Shown here: positions 54,926 through 59,374 of the stretch, piece after piece
Position numbering within the stretch: the stretch's first letter is position 1
Layout of the letters: each line of letters opens with the position of its first letter
Assembly: GCA_913046365.1 (NCBI GenBank)
Contig: CAJWRM010000011.1
Span: 1 to 64,000 of the forward strand
DNA: 64,000 nucleotides
Direction of reading: 5' to 3'
Origin: an uncultured Flavobacteriales bacterium
Lineage (GTDB): Bacteria; Bacteroidota; Bacteroidia; Flavobacteriales_D; Crocinitomicaceae
Program-made: the position numbers and the translations under genes
The notes under the pieces: generated by a model
What the model was told of the DNA's origin: nothing
Databases searched by the model: none
Seen by the model: only the letters and a program-made list of their open reading frames with translations

Positions 54926-56137
54926 TTATTCGAGCCCCTTTACGTAATCGCTAAGGTAGGCAAAGTCTGGCATAAGGTTTCCCTCTAGGTCTGTTTGGCT
55001 CGCCCGTTCAATGATTCGTTTTGGATCTTTACCAATTAGGGCCGGCAAGACATGCTTAATAAGTTCATTACCAAAATCTTCTGAAGCATCTTTTGGTAAT
55101 TCACAGGGCAGATTGTCAACAGCCATTACAGCAATTGCATTTTCATTCATATAATCAACTTCTTTACCTGTAGACGGGTCATAGCCATAAATTGGAGTAG
55201 CCACTTTGGATGGTCTTAAGGTCGAAGCTATAGGATCTGCGATATCACAGGATATATCTGCAACAACAGAAATTCTGTTGTTGTCTTTTGAAAGATCATC
55301 TTTCGTCAATATTTTTGGTGAGCGGCTATTCCAATAGTGACATGGAATATACATGTCAGTTTCTGGAACATATTTTTGGAAGCCTTGATCGTATAATTCT
55401 GGTTGCTTGTAAAATTCACTTCTTATAAATTCAGTTCCATCCTTCTTTTCAAAGTAGTGTTCTACTTCTAGGTGCGTGAAGACAGGTACGCTAAAATCCC
55501 CGTTTAAATAATCTAAAGGATTAACCTCTTTTATTGGGAGTAAGCTCATTATTTCTCTTGCTCCATGTCCAACGCGGCCAAATCCAGTGAGCGCCATTTT
55601 AAAGTTCTCAGGAAGCTTTACTTTTTGAAGCTCAGATTCTACTTCCTTTCGATCCTTGCATTCGTTTGCCGGTTTAATTGAATACAGTTTATGTTTCAGT
55701 CCATAAGTTCTAAATCCATTATAACAGCCTACTATTCCTGCATAACGCCCGAATCCAATCAGTCGGATATTTCGCTCATCTTTGATGACCTCATAATCAA
55801 TTAAACGAATGTTCTTGTTTAGTATTTCTTCTAATAAAACACGGTTATAGGATTGCTTTTTAAATGTGTGAGAGAAAAACATAAAGGTTTTTCCTGGTAT
55901 CAGGTCCTCTAAATTCACTTCTTTTACTCCAATAATCACATCGCAATGCGATAGGTTGTCCACAAGTGGAAGTCCTAAAGCTTCATATTCATCATCTTTA
56001 TACGTTCTTATGGGACTGCGTTGTATGAAGACCTCTGCCTCTGGATACGTGTCGACAATTTGCTTGCATTGTTTGGGTGTTAAGGCGACTCTATAATCTG
56101 GTGGCACCTTACCCTCCTTTATAATTCCTATTTTCAT
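54926..56137 (-). CDS. Saccharopine dehydrogenase (LYS1-like), AlaDH/PNT family
   Basis: The protein has 403 residues from the ATG at 56137 (MKIGIIKEGKVPPDYRVALTP). Long stretches follow the pattern of yeast LYS1: IIGVKE, FSHTFKKQ, RLIDYEVIKDERNIRLIGFG, TGFGRVGHGA (NAD site), VVADISCDIADPIAST and AVDNLPCELPKDASEDFG. Catalytic Lys and His equivalents are probably KE (about 72) and SH (about 90). It would reduce an imine of lysine and 2-oxoglutarate, or oxidise saccharopine. It is the fifth gene in the operon starting at 59236, 4 bp after the HAD gene. dapD is nearby, but a lysine link is inference. Confidence 0.83.
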   Translation of the reverse strand: MKIGIIKEGKVPPDYRVALTPKQCKQIVDTYPEAEVFIQRSPIRTYKDDEYEALGLPLVDNLSHCDVIIGVKEVNLEDLIPGKTFMFFSHTFKKQSYNRVLLEEILNKNIRLIDYEVIKDERNIRLIGFGRYAGIVGCYNGFRTYGLKHKLYSIKPANECKDRKEVESELQKVKLPENFKMALTGFGRVGHGAREIMSLLPIKEVNPLDYLNGDFSVPVFTHLEVEHYFEKKDGTEFIRSEFYKQPELYDQGFQKYVPETDMYIPCHYWNSRSPKILTKDDLSKDNNRISVVADISCDIADPIASTLRPSKVATPIYGYDPSTGKEVDYMNENAIAVMAVDNLPCELPKDASEDFGNELIKHVLPALIGKDPKRIIERASQTDLEGNLMPDFAYLSDYVKGLE

Positions 56138-56141
56138 ATCA

Positions 56142-56810
56142 TTATCCTTTTTGAAGGTAATTGTCAATAAATTCTCTAATACAACCTTCTCCACCTTTAC
56201 GCTTTAAGACTACATGTGAAATACTTTTAATTTCATTAACGGCATCTGCAGGACAAGCTGCTAAGCCTATGCTAGACATAATGTCTTTGTCATTAATGTC
56301 ATCGCCAATCATTGCTACTTGATCGAGCGTAAGTTCTTTTTCAGTAATCCATGATTTAAGTACCGACATCTTTGCTTCTCTTCCAACATAACAGTTTTCT
56401 ATTTGGAGCATCTTCGCCCTTTTTTGTACAATTTCTGAAGAAAATCCTGATGAAATGATACCCAATTCAATGTCAGTATCTCTGAGCTTTAAGATGCCCA
56501 TACCATCTTTGGTATTGAATTTTTTTAGCTCATCACCTGTTGCTGTGTAATGCATTCCTCCATCGGTCATGACGCCATCAACATCCAAGATCAAGAGCTT
56601 TATATCTTCCAATTTCTTTTTTAATGAGGCTTCAAAGAATACAGCTTTAAAAAGAAGCGTATGCAGATCAATTTCGTATTCTTCACATATCGCCTCAAGA
56701 TCAAATAGGCTCATTTCCATAACATGGTCAACTTCAAAATCTTTAAGAAATTCATAAAAGTCAAGCCCGAATTTGGAACAAATACCTTTTATATTTTGCT
56801 CTAATGTCAT
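56142..56810 (-). CDS. KdsC/YrbI-type HAD phosphatase with N-terminal helical extension
   Basis: The HAD phosphatase of the KDO-8-phosphate phosphatase branch covers about residues 65-222: nucleophile motif LLILDVDGVMTDGGMHYT, FNTKDGMGILKLRD, SSGFSSEIVQKRAK, and MIGDDINDKDIMSS. The first 65 residues are an additional helical region (FGLDFYEFLKDFEVDHVMEM) with HTH-like spacing, not present in standard KdsC (about 170-190 residues). Substrate: a 3-deoxy-ulosonate phosphate is likely, from the family; which one is open. It lies 1 bp after the DAHP synthase gene. Confidence 0.86.
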   Translation of the reverse strand: MTLEQNIKGICSKFGLDFYEFLKDFEVDHVMEMSLFDLEAICEEYEIDLHTLLFKAVFFEASLKKKLEDIKLLILDVDGVMTDGGMHYTATGDELKKFNTKDGMGILKLRDTDIELGIISSGFSSEIVQKRAKMLQIENCYVGREAKMSVLKSWITEKELTLDQVAMIGDDINDKDIMSSIGLAACPADAVNEIKSISHVVLKRKGGEGCIREFIDNYLQKG

Positions 56811-56811
56811 C

Positions 56812-57813
56812 TTATCTTATTTTTCTACCAAGACATTCAGCCAAAGGCTGTAAATCATTATGTAAATCCCTAAACGAATCATAATCTAATTGCTGCGAGG
56901 CATCCGATTTTGCCAAGGATGGAGTAGGGTGTGTCTCAATAATCAGTCCCTCAACATTCATTGCCATACATGCCTTGGTTAATGCAGGAACACCATATGC
57001 ATAACCCATCGCGTGTGAAGGATCCAGTATGATTGGGAGATTTGTGTGTTCCTGAAGCCATGCAACGCCACACAAGTCTAGTGTAAATCTTGTTTTTGTC
57101 TCAAACGTTCTTATACCTCTTTCGCAAAGAATCACATTTGAATTCCCTCCAGATAAAATAAACTCGGCGGCTTGTGTAAATTCTTGTAGCGTCGTACCAA
57201 AGCCTCTTTTGATCATTACAGGTTTTTGTGTCTTTGAACATGCGCGTAAAATGCCCTGGTCATACATTGCTTTTGCACCTATTTGAACAATATCTGTATG
57301 TTCAATGATTTCTGCCACATGCGTTGCGTCTCTTACCTCAGAAATAATTAGGTGACCAAATTCTTCTCTCATTTTAGACAAAAGCTGAAGGCCTTCTATT
57401 CCCATTCCTTGAAATGAGTATGGGCTAGTTCTTGGTTTATAACATCCTCCTCGAAGAACGCTGAGGTTCAGTTCTTTTAAAAGTTCAGCCGCTGATCGTA
57501 TCTGGTCTTCTGATTCAACGGAGCAAGGACCACCTATAAGTAATGTATTATTGTGTTTTCCTCCAATAGATAATCCTTCCTTAAGCTTTATTTCTCTCGT
57601 TATATTTCGGAAATCCCTTGAGGAAAGCTGCATATCTGTGGCAAAAACCCATTGGTTTTCTGCATGCTTGCTGAGCTCATTATCCATTTCTTTGATTGAT
57701 GCACTTGTTATTAAGAAGTTCTTGTCTGAATCGAAAATATGAAAAGCACAGTGCTTTTTTGCTAGGTATTCAATGGTCTCCTCACTCGTAATTTTCTTTA
57801 ACTCGATAATCAT
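56812..57813 (-). CDS. aroF: 3-deoxy-7-phosphoheptulonate (DAHP) synthase, type I-beta with N-terminal regulatory domain
   Basis: This PEP-condensing TIM-barrel aldolase has 333 residues. An N-terminal ferredoxin-like domain (about 1-75) resembles that of Thermotoga DAHP synthase. The barrel has GGPCSVES (about 93), RGGCYKPRTSPYSFQGMG (metal and substrate site), VMIKRG, CERGIRTFE and LDPSHAMGYAYG (metal His). No chorismate-mutase domain follows, unlike the fused enzyme usual in Bacteroidota. It would make DAHP from erythrose-4-phosphate and PEP; a KdsA-like specificity cannot be excluded. It overlaps the epimerase-CBS gene by 4 nt. Confidence 0.88.
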   Translation of the reverse strand: MIIELKKITSEETIEYLAKKHCAFHIFDSDKNFLITSASIKEMDNELSKHAENQWVFATDMQLSSRDFRNITREIKLKEGLSIGGKHNNTLLIGGPCSVESEDQIRSAAELLKELNLSVLRGGCYKPRTSPYSFQGMGIEGLQLLSKMREEFGHLIISEVRDATHVAEIIEHTDIVQIGAKAMYDQGILRACSKTQKPVMIKRGFGTTLQEFTQAAEFILSGGNSNVILCERGIRTFETKTRFTLDLCGVAWLQEHTNLPIILDPSHAMGYAYGVPALTKACMAMNVEGLIIETHPTPSLAKSDASQQLDYDSFRDLHNDLQPLAECLGRKIR

Positions 57814-58814
57814 ATTTCTCCTTTAATCAGGTGGACAAAATTAACAATTCCAATCGCATTTCCTTCCTCATTGATTACCGGCAAATACATAACTGGAAAA
57901 GAACAAGATTTGATTTTTTTCAATAGTTCGTTAACGGTTGCAGATCCTGTAATTGAAATGGGGTCTGTATTGATCAGATCTTCCGGGATAATTGATTGAT
58001 GGTTATCTATTTTTAAAAGAAGCGCTTTGCGAATATCCGCACTGGAAACCAATCCATGTAGCATGCCATTTTCGCCTAATACCAATGAAAATCCCATCTT
58101 TCCATTTTCAACGCATTCTAAAATTTCTTTTGTTTTGGCCCCTTTTAATTTAATATGGGGTGCTTCTTCGAGCGGGGTCATAAAGTCCTTTACAAAGTAT
58201 TGTGATTCGACCTCTCTCTGAGTCAGGTTCATTAAAGCATTACCAACACTCGCCTCACCAAAGAGATAAGAACCAGAAACGGAAGAGCTAACTCCCATAT
58301 TTCTCAGAATAAATGAAACCTCAGCGTTAACGCCGCCATCGACATGAATGGATTTTTTTGGGTAGCTTTTTCTGAATTGTCGAATTTTGGAAAAGTTCTT
58401 TTGGTCAAAAACACCTCCGCTTTGGCCAGGTATTGTTGCCATGATGAGAATAAAGTCCATATCTGAATAATTCTCAAATACTTCGACGCTTGTTGGTGTC
58501 GTAATTGCGAGTCCTTTTTTTCCTTTGATCTCCTCAGGAATCACAAGCGGACGGGAAAGGTTTTCAAACTGAAAAGTGATATATTCAACTGGATGTTCTA
58601 TCAGCAAAGGATAAAATTTCTCAGGTTGATCTGTTATAATATGAAGATCAATAGGGGTTTTACACCAATCTCGAATATTTTTAATATCTTCAAATACGGC
58701 TATATCATCATTGCAGTCGACATGTAATAAGTCCATTTGATGACCAACTAAATCCTGAATCACTTTTCGAAGTGGTCGCTGCTTGTCGCTATATATAGAC
58801 GCTGATATTTTCAT
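57810..58814 (-). CDS. Ribulose-phosphate 3-epimerase-like domain fused to two CBS domains
   Basis: Residues 1-200 follow the ribulose-phosphate 3-epimerase barrel with the metal and catalytic residues retained: Ser6 (SIYS), His31 and Asp33 (LLHVDCND), His58 (IDLHII), the IPGQSGG phosphate/flap loop (about 128-134) and Asp159 (IHVDGG). Residues about 205-334 are two CBS domains (VKDFMTPLEEAPHI ... GLVSSADIRKALL; INTDPISITGSATV ... AIGIVNFVHLI), which normally bind adenine nucleotides. Standard epimerases have no CBS. The pair mimics the CBS pair of KdsD. It overlaps the genes on both sides by 4 nt. Confidence 0.85.
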   Translation of the reverse strand: MKISASIYSDKQRPLRKVIQDLVGHQMDLLHVDCNDDIAVFEDIKNIRDWCKTPIDLHIITDQPEKFYPLLIEHPVEYITFQFENLSRPLVIPEEIKGKKGLAITTPTSVEVFENYSDMDFILIMATIPGQSGGVFDQKNFSKIRQFRKSYPKKSIHVDGGVNAEVSFILRNMGVSSSVSGSYLFGEASVGNALMNLTQREVESQYFVKDFMTPLEEAPHIKLKGAKTKEILECVENGKMGFSLVLGENGMLHGLVSSADIRKALLLKIDNHQSIIPEDLINTDPISITGSATVNELLKKIKSCSFPVMYLPVINEEGNAIGIVNFVHLIKGEI

Positions 58815-59236
58815 TGTTCAGGGTTTAACGGAATAGGCGTGCTAATCATCTGGAATTTATTGTCGCAAATGACTAGTTCACACTTTTTCTCTACAAAAAC
58901 GCGGGTATTTAGGTCTTGTTGTATTTGACCTATTAATTTTAGCTCTTCAAAATCGATTTTCATTTCAGGACTAAAATCTTCGCGAAGAATCAACCTAATT
59001 TGATATACCTCATTGGTTGTGTCTTCGGTAATTTTAATGTTTTGGGGACGGTCTTCAATATAATTTCCTTGTATCCAAAAATCAGCAAATTTTCCAATTA
59101 TTTCCTCATTTGTCGAATCAGAGAAGTAAACTTTTAGATGGCCTCTATCGACTACTTTCTCACCTGTCATATTGCAAGCAAATAAAAGAATACATAAAAG
59201 GGCGATAACAAATGATTTTTCAATAGATTTCGGCAT
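58811..59236 (-). CDS. Small lipoprotein heading the epimerase-CBS operon
   Basis: The protein has 141 residues from the ATG at 59236 (a GTG one codon earlier is possible). The lipoprotein signal is IALLCILLFAC (Cys21). The mature part is a small beta-rich domain (GHLKVYFSDSTNEEIIGKFADFW ... VYQIRLILREDFS). No family is recognised. The stop overlaps the start of the epimerase-CBS gene by 4 nt, so it belongs to that operon. The SRP RNA gene ends 29 bp upstream. Confidence 0.7.
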   Translation of the reverse strand: MPKSIEKSFVIALLCILLFACNMTGEKVVDRGHLKVYFSDSTNEEIIGKFADFWIQGNYIEDRPQNIKITEDTTNEVYQIRLILREDFSPEMKIDFEELKLIGQIQQDLNTRVFVEKKCELVICDNKFQMISTPIPLNPEQ

Positions 59237-59265
59237 CACTTTTCAGAAATAAATTCAAAAAAAGA

Positions 59266-59363
59266 GGGGTAAGCTACTTCTATCGCACCGCTACAACCTC
59301 ACACCTTTGCTACGTTCCCGTCCTGGAGGATTCAGAGGGAGCTGGTCGTAAAAGACTTACCCC
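59266..59363 (-). ncRNA. ffs: Signal recognition particle RNA, small bacterial type (4.5S)
   Basis: The minus strand has the terminal stem GGGGTAAG / CTTACCCC and the apical SRP hairpin with the conserved CAGGACGGGAACGTAGCA: the GGAA-type tetraloop and the 3' AGCA of the Ffh-binding loop. Size is about 98 nt. A run of T (CTCTTTTTTTG) follows at the 3' end and serves as terminator. The -7 box TATATTTG ends 3 nt before the first G of the RNA. Confidence 0.93.
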
Positions 59364-59366
59364 GCG

Positions 59367-59374
59367 CAAATATA
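59367..59374 (-). promoter_or_regulatory. -7 box of the SRP RNA gene
   Basis: TATATTTG on the minus strand (59374 to 59367). The RNA begins about 4 nt after the final G, which fixes the distance from this box to the transcription start. Confidence 0.7.

Follow-up and report, generated by a model that had tools for sequence, protein, structure and literature searches.

A conserved gene module of Flavobacteriales as a probable substitute for KdsD and KdsA in the Kdo pathway

The sugar 3-deoxy-D-manno-octulosonate (Kdo) anchors the lipopolysaccharide of the outer membrane. It is near-essential in Gram-negative bacteria, and the enzymes that make it are drug targets. In the route typified by E. 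coli, Kdo is produced by KdsD, KdsA and KdsC and is then handled by KdsB and KdtA. A related arrangement is described here from a stretch of 64,000 nucleotides (the window; positions 1 to 64,000 of contig CAJWRM010000011.1, assembly GCA_913046365.1) of an uncultured Flavobacteriales bacterium of the Crocinitomicaceae, whose genome assembly comprises 2.44 Mb in 63 contigs. An operon in the window encodes a ribulose-phosphate 3-epimerase-type barrel fused to a pair of CBS domains (Rpe-CBS), an enzyme resembling 3-deoxy-D-arabino-heptulosonate 7-phosphate synthase (DAHPS) and a KdsC-type HAD phosphatase. These genes are conserved together, the genomes that carry them have neither KdsA nor a convincing KdsD, KdsB and KdtA are retained, and key catalytic positions are kept. 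The module probably stands in for KdsD and KdsA in making Kdo, and its HAD protein would serve as the phosphatase.

Operon structure and genomic distribution

The initial annotation had described five tightly packed genes with gaps of -4 to 4 bp, and all five open reading frames and their family assignments were recovered. They lie on the minus strand with successive gaps of -4, -4, +1 and +4 bp, the two 4-bp overlaps joining the lipoprotein gene to the Rpe-CBS gene and the Rpe-CBS gene to the DAHPS-like gene:

58811-59236, minus strand: small lipoprotein; ATG start, with a GTG at 59239 as a possible alternative; no Pfam or NCBIfam match
57810-58814, minus strand: Rpe-CBS, a ribulose-phosphate 3-epimerase-type barrel with a CBS pair, 334 residues; PF00834 (84.8 bits) and CBS
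56812-57813, minus strand: DAHPS-like enzyme of the type that condenses phosphoenolpyruvate (PEP), 333 residues, without chorismate mutase; PF00793, and over the cut-off of NCBIfam DAHPS models
56142-56810, minus strand: KdsC-type HAD phosphatase, 222 residues; over the cut-off of TIGR01670
54926-56137, minus strand: LYS1/LKR-like saccharopine dehydrogenase; AlaDh_PNT_N; the ATG at 56137 is preferred over an upstream GTG

Carriers were defined by an Rpe-CBS match at E 1e-100 or better among 249 Flavobacteriales genomes. There are 94 of them, 88 in family f1, which is taken to be the Crocinitomicaceae, and six in families f3, f8 and f10 (labels beginning with f, g, G, L and C are our own for families, genera, genomes, loci and contigs). 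Gene order was counted in 38 fetched carrier neighbourhoods and in a separate set of 80 named GTDB loci, partly from the same genomes. The DAHPS-like gene directly follows the Rpe-CBS gene in 37 of the 38 neighbourhoods, with the same overlap in 35, a spacing of 2 bp in one and of 87 bp in another; the sole exception is G139, where some 12 kb of the contig separate the DAHPS-like and HAD genes from Rpe-CBS. The HAD gene follows within 74 bp of the DAHPS-like gene in 35 of the 38. At L047 the spacing is 281 bp, since the first 65 HAD residues are unaligned, and at L038 there is a gap of 1.6 kb. Among the named loci, the DAHPS-like gene follows Rpe-CBS in all 75 that were testable, and the HAD gene is in place in all 71 that were testable for it. 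The adjacency, whose conservation the initial annotation had proposed to check, is not chance. Across the phylum, Rpe-CBS was matched at E 1e-30 in two of 392 sampled genomes. Both belong to the genus of the window, and the module therefore appears to be confined to the order.

The distribution of the canonical enzymes is nearly the reverse. KdsA (TIGR01362 at E 1e-50) occurs in none of the 94 carriers versus 140 of the 155 non-carriers, and KdsD (TIGR00393 at E 1e-25) in one carrier versus 137 of the 155; many of these genomes are drafts, and the sample includes relatives, so Fisher p values overstate independence. The lone carrier match, in G076, is a weak KdsD-like one of 92.5 bits in a 212-residue frame, compared with 157-176 bits for single-domain KdsD elsewhere. 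The window genome gave no KdsD match at the same threshold. It holds two PF00793 proteins, the operon enzyme and a DAHPS-chorismate mutase fusion on contig C3, and because the latter carries the chorismate mutase domain, no KdsA is recognisable in this genome. Of the genes whose presence the initial annotation had raised as a question, the fusion was thus found, and kdsD and kdsA were not; the operon enzyme is not the only DAHPS of its genome, and it stands in a conserved trio. Five non-carriers (G016, G081, G120, G141 and G145) have neither KdsA nor KdsD. In G145 the DAHPS-like gene begins its contig, so Rpe-CBS may be merely unassembled there. The carrier state and the KdsD/KdsA state are both present inside each of families f1, f3, f8 and f10.

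The later steps of the pathway are retained. KdsB, KdtA, NeuB, PF00793 proteins and KdsC-type HAD proteins were counted in a selection of 57 genomes that includes 39 carriers. KdsB is over its cut-off in 56 of the 57, including 38 carriers, the exception (carrier G021) being a fragment at a contig end; KdtA is present in all 57, including the 39 carriers. An alignment of KdsB from 20 genomes contains one conservative I/V column that splits carriers from non-carriers, and an alignment of KdtA from 18 genomes contains none, with truncated rows for KdtA of G006, G007, G014 and G194 and for KdsB of G112. As neither protein shows a carrier-specific residue pattern, the alignments argue, indirectly, that the same sugar would enter KdsB and KdtA in both groups. 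Because carriers without KdsA or a convincing KdsD keep KdsB and KdtA, the module most likely replaces the Kdo route and does not make an extra ulosonate. The interpretation offered by the initial annotation is supported in part.

Within genus g13 the two states differ gene for gene. Nine sampled members carry Rpe-CBS, and two others, G153 and G187, are without it. In these two the locus reads lipoprotein, HAD, LYS1-like gene and ATG22-like gene and is otherwise syntenic, only the Rpe-CBS and DAHPS-like genes being gone, and a single-domain KdsD gene lies directly beside KdsA elsewhere in the genome. In a 12-sequence tree the KdsA of both clusters with the one from G024, a member of another family (support 100/98), which suggests a horizontal gain. 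The HAD gene is kept in both states, whether next to Rpe-CBS and the DAHPS-like gene or with KdsD-KdsA elsewhere, as expected if it acts on a common product.

The core proteins and another apparent substitute for KdsD

The comparison of active sites relied on sequence alignments. Rpe-CBS scores 76.7 bits with the Rpe equivalog model TIGR01163, below the cut-off of 212.6, and a normal Rpe is also encoded elsewhere in the window genome. Residues H31, D33, H58 and D159 are found in all 38 Rpe-CBS proteins and in all 11 ordinary Rpe proteins of the same order. No KdsD-type SIS isomerase domain was found in Rpe-CBS, for which Pfam gives PF00834 and CBS only. One CBS stretch passes in Pfam, and a profile search aligned this region over a complete CBS pair. 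When a profile of 13 such CBS pairs was used, the best PDB match was 4o9k, a D-arabinose 5-phosphate (A5P) isomerase (E 4.9e-12, positions 3-127 of 130), which we take to be a complex with CMP-Kdo.

The DAHPS-like window protein exceeds the cut-offs of NF006421 (341.9 bits; 335 required) and TIGR01361 (298.3 bits; 267.75 required), and all 14 sampled members match both models at E 1e-10 or better. The GPC cysteine and DPSH histidine are retained in all 39 DAHPS-like sequences. In the same 39, GAR-N has become GAK[AS]MYD, with K181 where 14 of 14 DAHPS have arginine. The last-loop arginine, likewise found in 14 of 14 DAHPS, is lost in 36 (A272) and kept in three. The roles of individual DAHPS residues are here presumed. 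By sequence the enzyme is a DAHPS relative, and by genome context it is proposed as the probable holder of KdsA's job. Separately, some f3 and f4 genomes (L073-L075, L077 and L081) encode a second type I-beta DAHPS without a fused mutase (335-366 residue frames, DPSHGIGIRKHV), which is distinct from the operon's DAHPS-like enzyme.

The HAD protein scores 139.3 bits with TIGR01670, over the cut-off of 106.95, and 136.4 bits with the KdsC equivalog NF007019, under its cut-off of 208; the motif residues are invariant in 14 of 14 members. It begins with an extension of about 65 residues that matches HTH_3 in three and HTH_26 in two of the 14 members at E 0.05. The window's protein has no HTH_3 match at its N-terminus, and the extension is missing in genus g29; it is possibly the remnant of a helix-turn-helix domain. 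Seven of the 39 tested carriers (G100, G118, G167, G169, G173, G185 and G234) have the operon HAD as their only KdsC-type HAD above 100 bits. In those seven at least it is likely to be the KDO-8-phosphate phosphatase, and elsewhere either HAD could be.

A second CBS-fused barrel is found among the 13 genomes that have KdsA and no KdsD. Eight of them encode a barrel of the transaldolase/fructose-6-phosphate aldolase (TAL/FSA) type to which a CBS pair is joined (TAL/FSA-CBS; L161:1266-2273 in G002, and L286-L293), the copy in G075 being broken by a contig end. The remaining five (G051, G114, G138, G213 and G215) are drafts of 80-90% completeness. The fusion occurs in none of the 127 genomes with both KdsD and KdsA, and it is absent wherever KdsD or Rpe-CBS is present; G016, a genome lacking both KdsA and KdsD, has a fragment that matches the CBS end of the fusion. 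The distance between the fusion gene and KdsA is about 22 bp in G004 and 119 bp in G075. The best CBS structure for its CBS pair is again 4o9k, and the aligned aldolase lysine, presumably catalytic, is retained. TAL/FSA-CBS is probably another A5P-forming substitute for KdsD. E. coli FSA is reported to form A5P from glycolaldehyde and glyceraldehyde 3-phosphate (PMC9947464). Replacement of KdsD by a CBS-fused barrel is an apparent repeated pattern, and this pattern supports Rpe-CBS as an A5P supplier.

Proposed route and rival explanations

From these observations we infer the substrates, products and regulatory ligand of the route. In KdsD's place, Rpe-CBS would supply a pentose phosphate acceptor, most likely A5P. 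Its likeliest chemistry would be C2 epimerisation of ribose 5-phosphate, which would be Rpe's proton transfer beside the carbonyl shifted by one carbon, and isomerisation of ribulose 5-phosphate is the alternative. The DAHPS-like enzyme, in KdsA's place, would join this acceptor to PEP to give KDO-8-phosphate, from which the HAD protein would strip the phosphate, and unchanged KdsB and KdtA would then activate and transfer Kdo. The CBS pair, by analogy with that of KdsD, probably places the route under the control of an end product, for instance CMP-Kdo. A more far-reaching version can be put forward only tentatively, at somewhat less than even confidence: the A5P enzyme would have been swapped at least twice in Flavobacteriales, each time by a CBS pair with an unrelated barrel, and the Rpe-CBS line would also have swapped KdsA, with Rpe-CBS either as a ribose-5-phosphate 2-epimerase, which would be a new enzyme activity, or as a source of another acceptor, and with Kdo or a stereoisomer made by a new route.

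Several observations weigh against the proposed replacement. The DAHPS-like window protein scores 117.8 bits with the KdsA model TIGR01362, whose cut-off is 314, and all 39 DAHPS-like sequences have the DAHPS acceptor motif KPRT, unlike 12 of 12 KdsA. Were Rpe-CBS simply a maker of A5P, genomes combining it with KdsA might be expected, and none of the 94 does so; TAL/FSA-CBS coexists with KdsA, whereas the pair of Rpe-CBS and DAHPS-like enzyme substitutes for KdsD and KdsA at once. With KPRT kept and KdsD and KdsA missing jointly, the acceptor or the product may be a different one. Used as a single sequence, the window's CBS pair ranks 4o9k fourth (E 2.7e-4), and another CBS protein of the window genome outscores Rpe-CBS when matched to the CBS portion of the KdsD model (45.8 versus 28.4 bits), so KdsD ancestry of the CBS pair is no more than a possibility; that protein, of about 500 residues, is probably IMP dehydrogenase. 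A second KdsC-type HAD above 100 bits, judged by eye, is present in 32 of the 39 tested carriers, and the KDO-8-phosphate phosphatase of those genomes may therefore be a protein other than the operon HAD. G010 (L154, contig C8) has the DAHPS-like and HAD genes without Rpe-CBS, alongside KdsD-KdsA, and its DAHPS-like protein sits on a very long tree branch. Finally, A5P isomerase activity is reported to be possible in other SIS enzymes, GFAT among them (PMC11301363), so the absence of KdsD does not prove the absence of an A5P isomerase.

The strongest competing explanation, though an unlikely one, is that the module makes another 3-deoxy-ulosonic acid in Kdo's place, and that KdsB and KdtA handle it. 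Examples would be the C5 epimer, starting from ribose 5-phosphate, and the seven-carbon sugar DAH, starting from erythrose 4-phosphate. This explanation would suit the invariant KPRT motif, and the loss of KdsD and KdsA together is what a differing intermediate would lead one to expect. KdsB and KdtA show no matching shift in specificity, however, a test that their truncated rows weaken, and in a genus of carriers there are two genomes that rely on KdsD-KdsA and have similar KdsB and KdtA.

The replacement of KdsD by Rpe-CBS would also be mistaken if the DAHPS-like enzyme were the KDO-8-phosphate synthase and its A5P came from another enzyme such as GlmS, leaving Rpe-CBS only to regulate or balance pentose phosphates. 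GFAT enzymes are reported to complement an E. coli A5P isomerase mutant (PMC11301363). Rpe pocket residues are changed in Rpe-CBS, so its substrate is uncertain. We nevertheless consider this explanation distinctly improbable, since KdsD is missing where Rpe-CBS is present although GlmS is to be expected in all of these genomes, and since in 35 of 38 loci the genes for Rpe-CBS and the synthase overlap.

A regulated entry to the shikimate pathway, the other function floated by the initial annotation, accords with the DAHPS family cut-offs that the window protein exceeds, yet it is very hard to sustain: the same genome has its DAHPS-chorismate mutase fusion on a separate contig, carriers and non-carriers alike hold a PF00793 protein of the DAHPS-chorismate mutase group (as a second such protein in 38 of the 39 tested carriers, all but G021, with the chorismate mutase domain confirmed for the window genome only), and the lack of KdsA and KdsD would go unexplained. 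Equally implausible is a module unrelated to lipopolysaccharide, with an unrecognised enzyme supplying KDO-8-phosphate and the exclusion reflecting lineage only, for although 88 of the 94 carriers belong to one family, which makes the counts non-independent, four families contain both states, the difference within one genus is gene-exact, and a search at E 1e-20 for NeuB, considered as a hidden KDO-8-phosphate synthase and rejected, gave no match for the window genome or for 17 of the 39 tested carriers.

Neighbouring genes and comparison with known systems

The two outer genes are less firmly attached to the module than the core trio. The lipoprotein gene, weakly conserved, is present in 12 of the 38 module loci (the window's included) and at both swapped loci. 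The LYS1-like protein has the lysine-ketoglutarate reductase (LKR) domain of AASS as its best PDB match (8e8t, E 1.4e-37). Counted in the same 38 loci, its gene adjoins the HAD gene in 19 (the window's included), all in family f1, with 56-84% identity in the other 18; it was unseen in the remaining 19, at L041 because the contig ends. It also remains in G153 and G187, where Rpe-CBS and the DAHPS-like gene are gone from the locus. A saccharopine dehydrogenase acting as a step on the ulosonate was considered and set aside, the gene not being conserved with the core genes. The five-gene set of the initial annotation is therefore better drawn without it, and the LYS1-like gene is probably a neighbour in the same gene run that lies outside the Kdo route. 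A small signal recognition particle RNA (RF04183, 106.5 bits) lies directly upstream of the operon at 59263-59369 on the minus strand.

Automatic annotation would name the two enzymes ribulose-phosphate epimerase and DAHP synthase, and the Kdo pathway would then look incomplete. A whole bacterial family apparently makes Kdo with these two enzymes, and the module is found in part of Flavobacteriales. If the proposed replacement is correct, it would add new A5P-forming enzymes, it would provide a case of a DAHPS recruited to KDO-8-phosphate synthesis that makes the relation of both enzymes testable, and it would exemplify how one kind of regulatory CBS pair can be joined to more than one catalytic barrel. 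A literature search that left subscription journals mostly uncovered turned up no paper linking Rpe, CBS and Kdo or DAHPS, which is weak evidence of absence.

Each core protein can be set beside a described relative. Like ordinary Rpe, the Rpe-CBS barrel keeps the aligned S6, H31, D33, H58 and D159 and the phosphate-binding glycines, to which we presumptively assign roles in metal binding, acid-base catalysis and phosphate binding. It differs in lacking a six-residue segment, in having mostly N for M35, I for M66 and Q for H88, in falling below the equivalog cut-off and in carrying the fused CBS pair. With the type I-beta DAHPS of Aeropyrum (1vs1), Pyrococcus (1zco/4c1k) and Thermotoga (1rzm), the DAHPS-like enzyme shares the catalytic domain, the KPRTSPYSFQG stretch and the GPC, KPRT and DPSH motifs, whereas it has GAK[AS]MYD for GARN, has mostly lost the last-loop arginine, and in the window genome stands beside a separate DAHPS-chorismate mutase. 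The HAD protein belongs to the same subfamily as KDN-9-phosphate phosphatase and KdsC (159.1 bits with the KDN model, 139.3 with TIGR01670), but it falls under both equivalog cut-offs (180 and 208) and has the extra N-terminal segment.

Taken together, the module matches the canonical KdsD-KdsA-KdsC system of the E. coli type in having a CBS-bearing sugar-phosphate enzyme, a PEP-condensing enzyme of PF00793 and a KdsC-type HAD phosphatase, together with KdsB and KdtA. It departs from that system in having an Rpe-type barrel instead of the SIS domain and a DAHPS-type enzyme with the KPRT motif instead of KdsA. The view that the operon mirrors KdsD-KdsA-KdsC with two folds exchanged is accordingly well supported, and the carriers' lack of KdsA and of a convincing KdsD extends the parallel.

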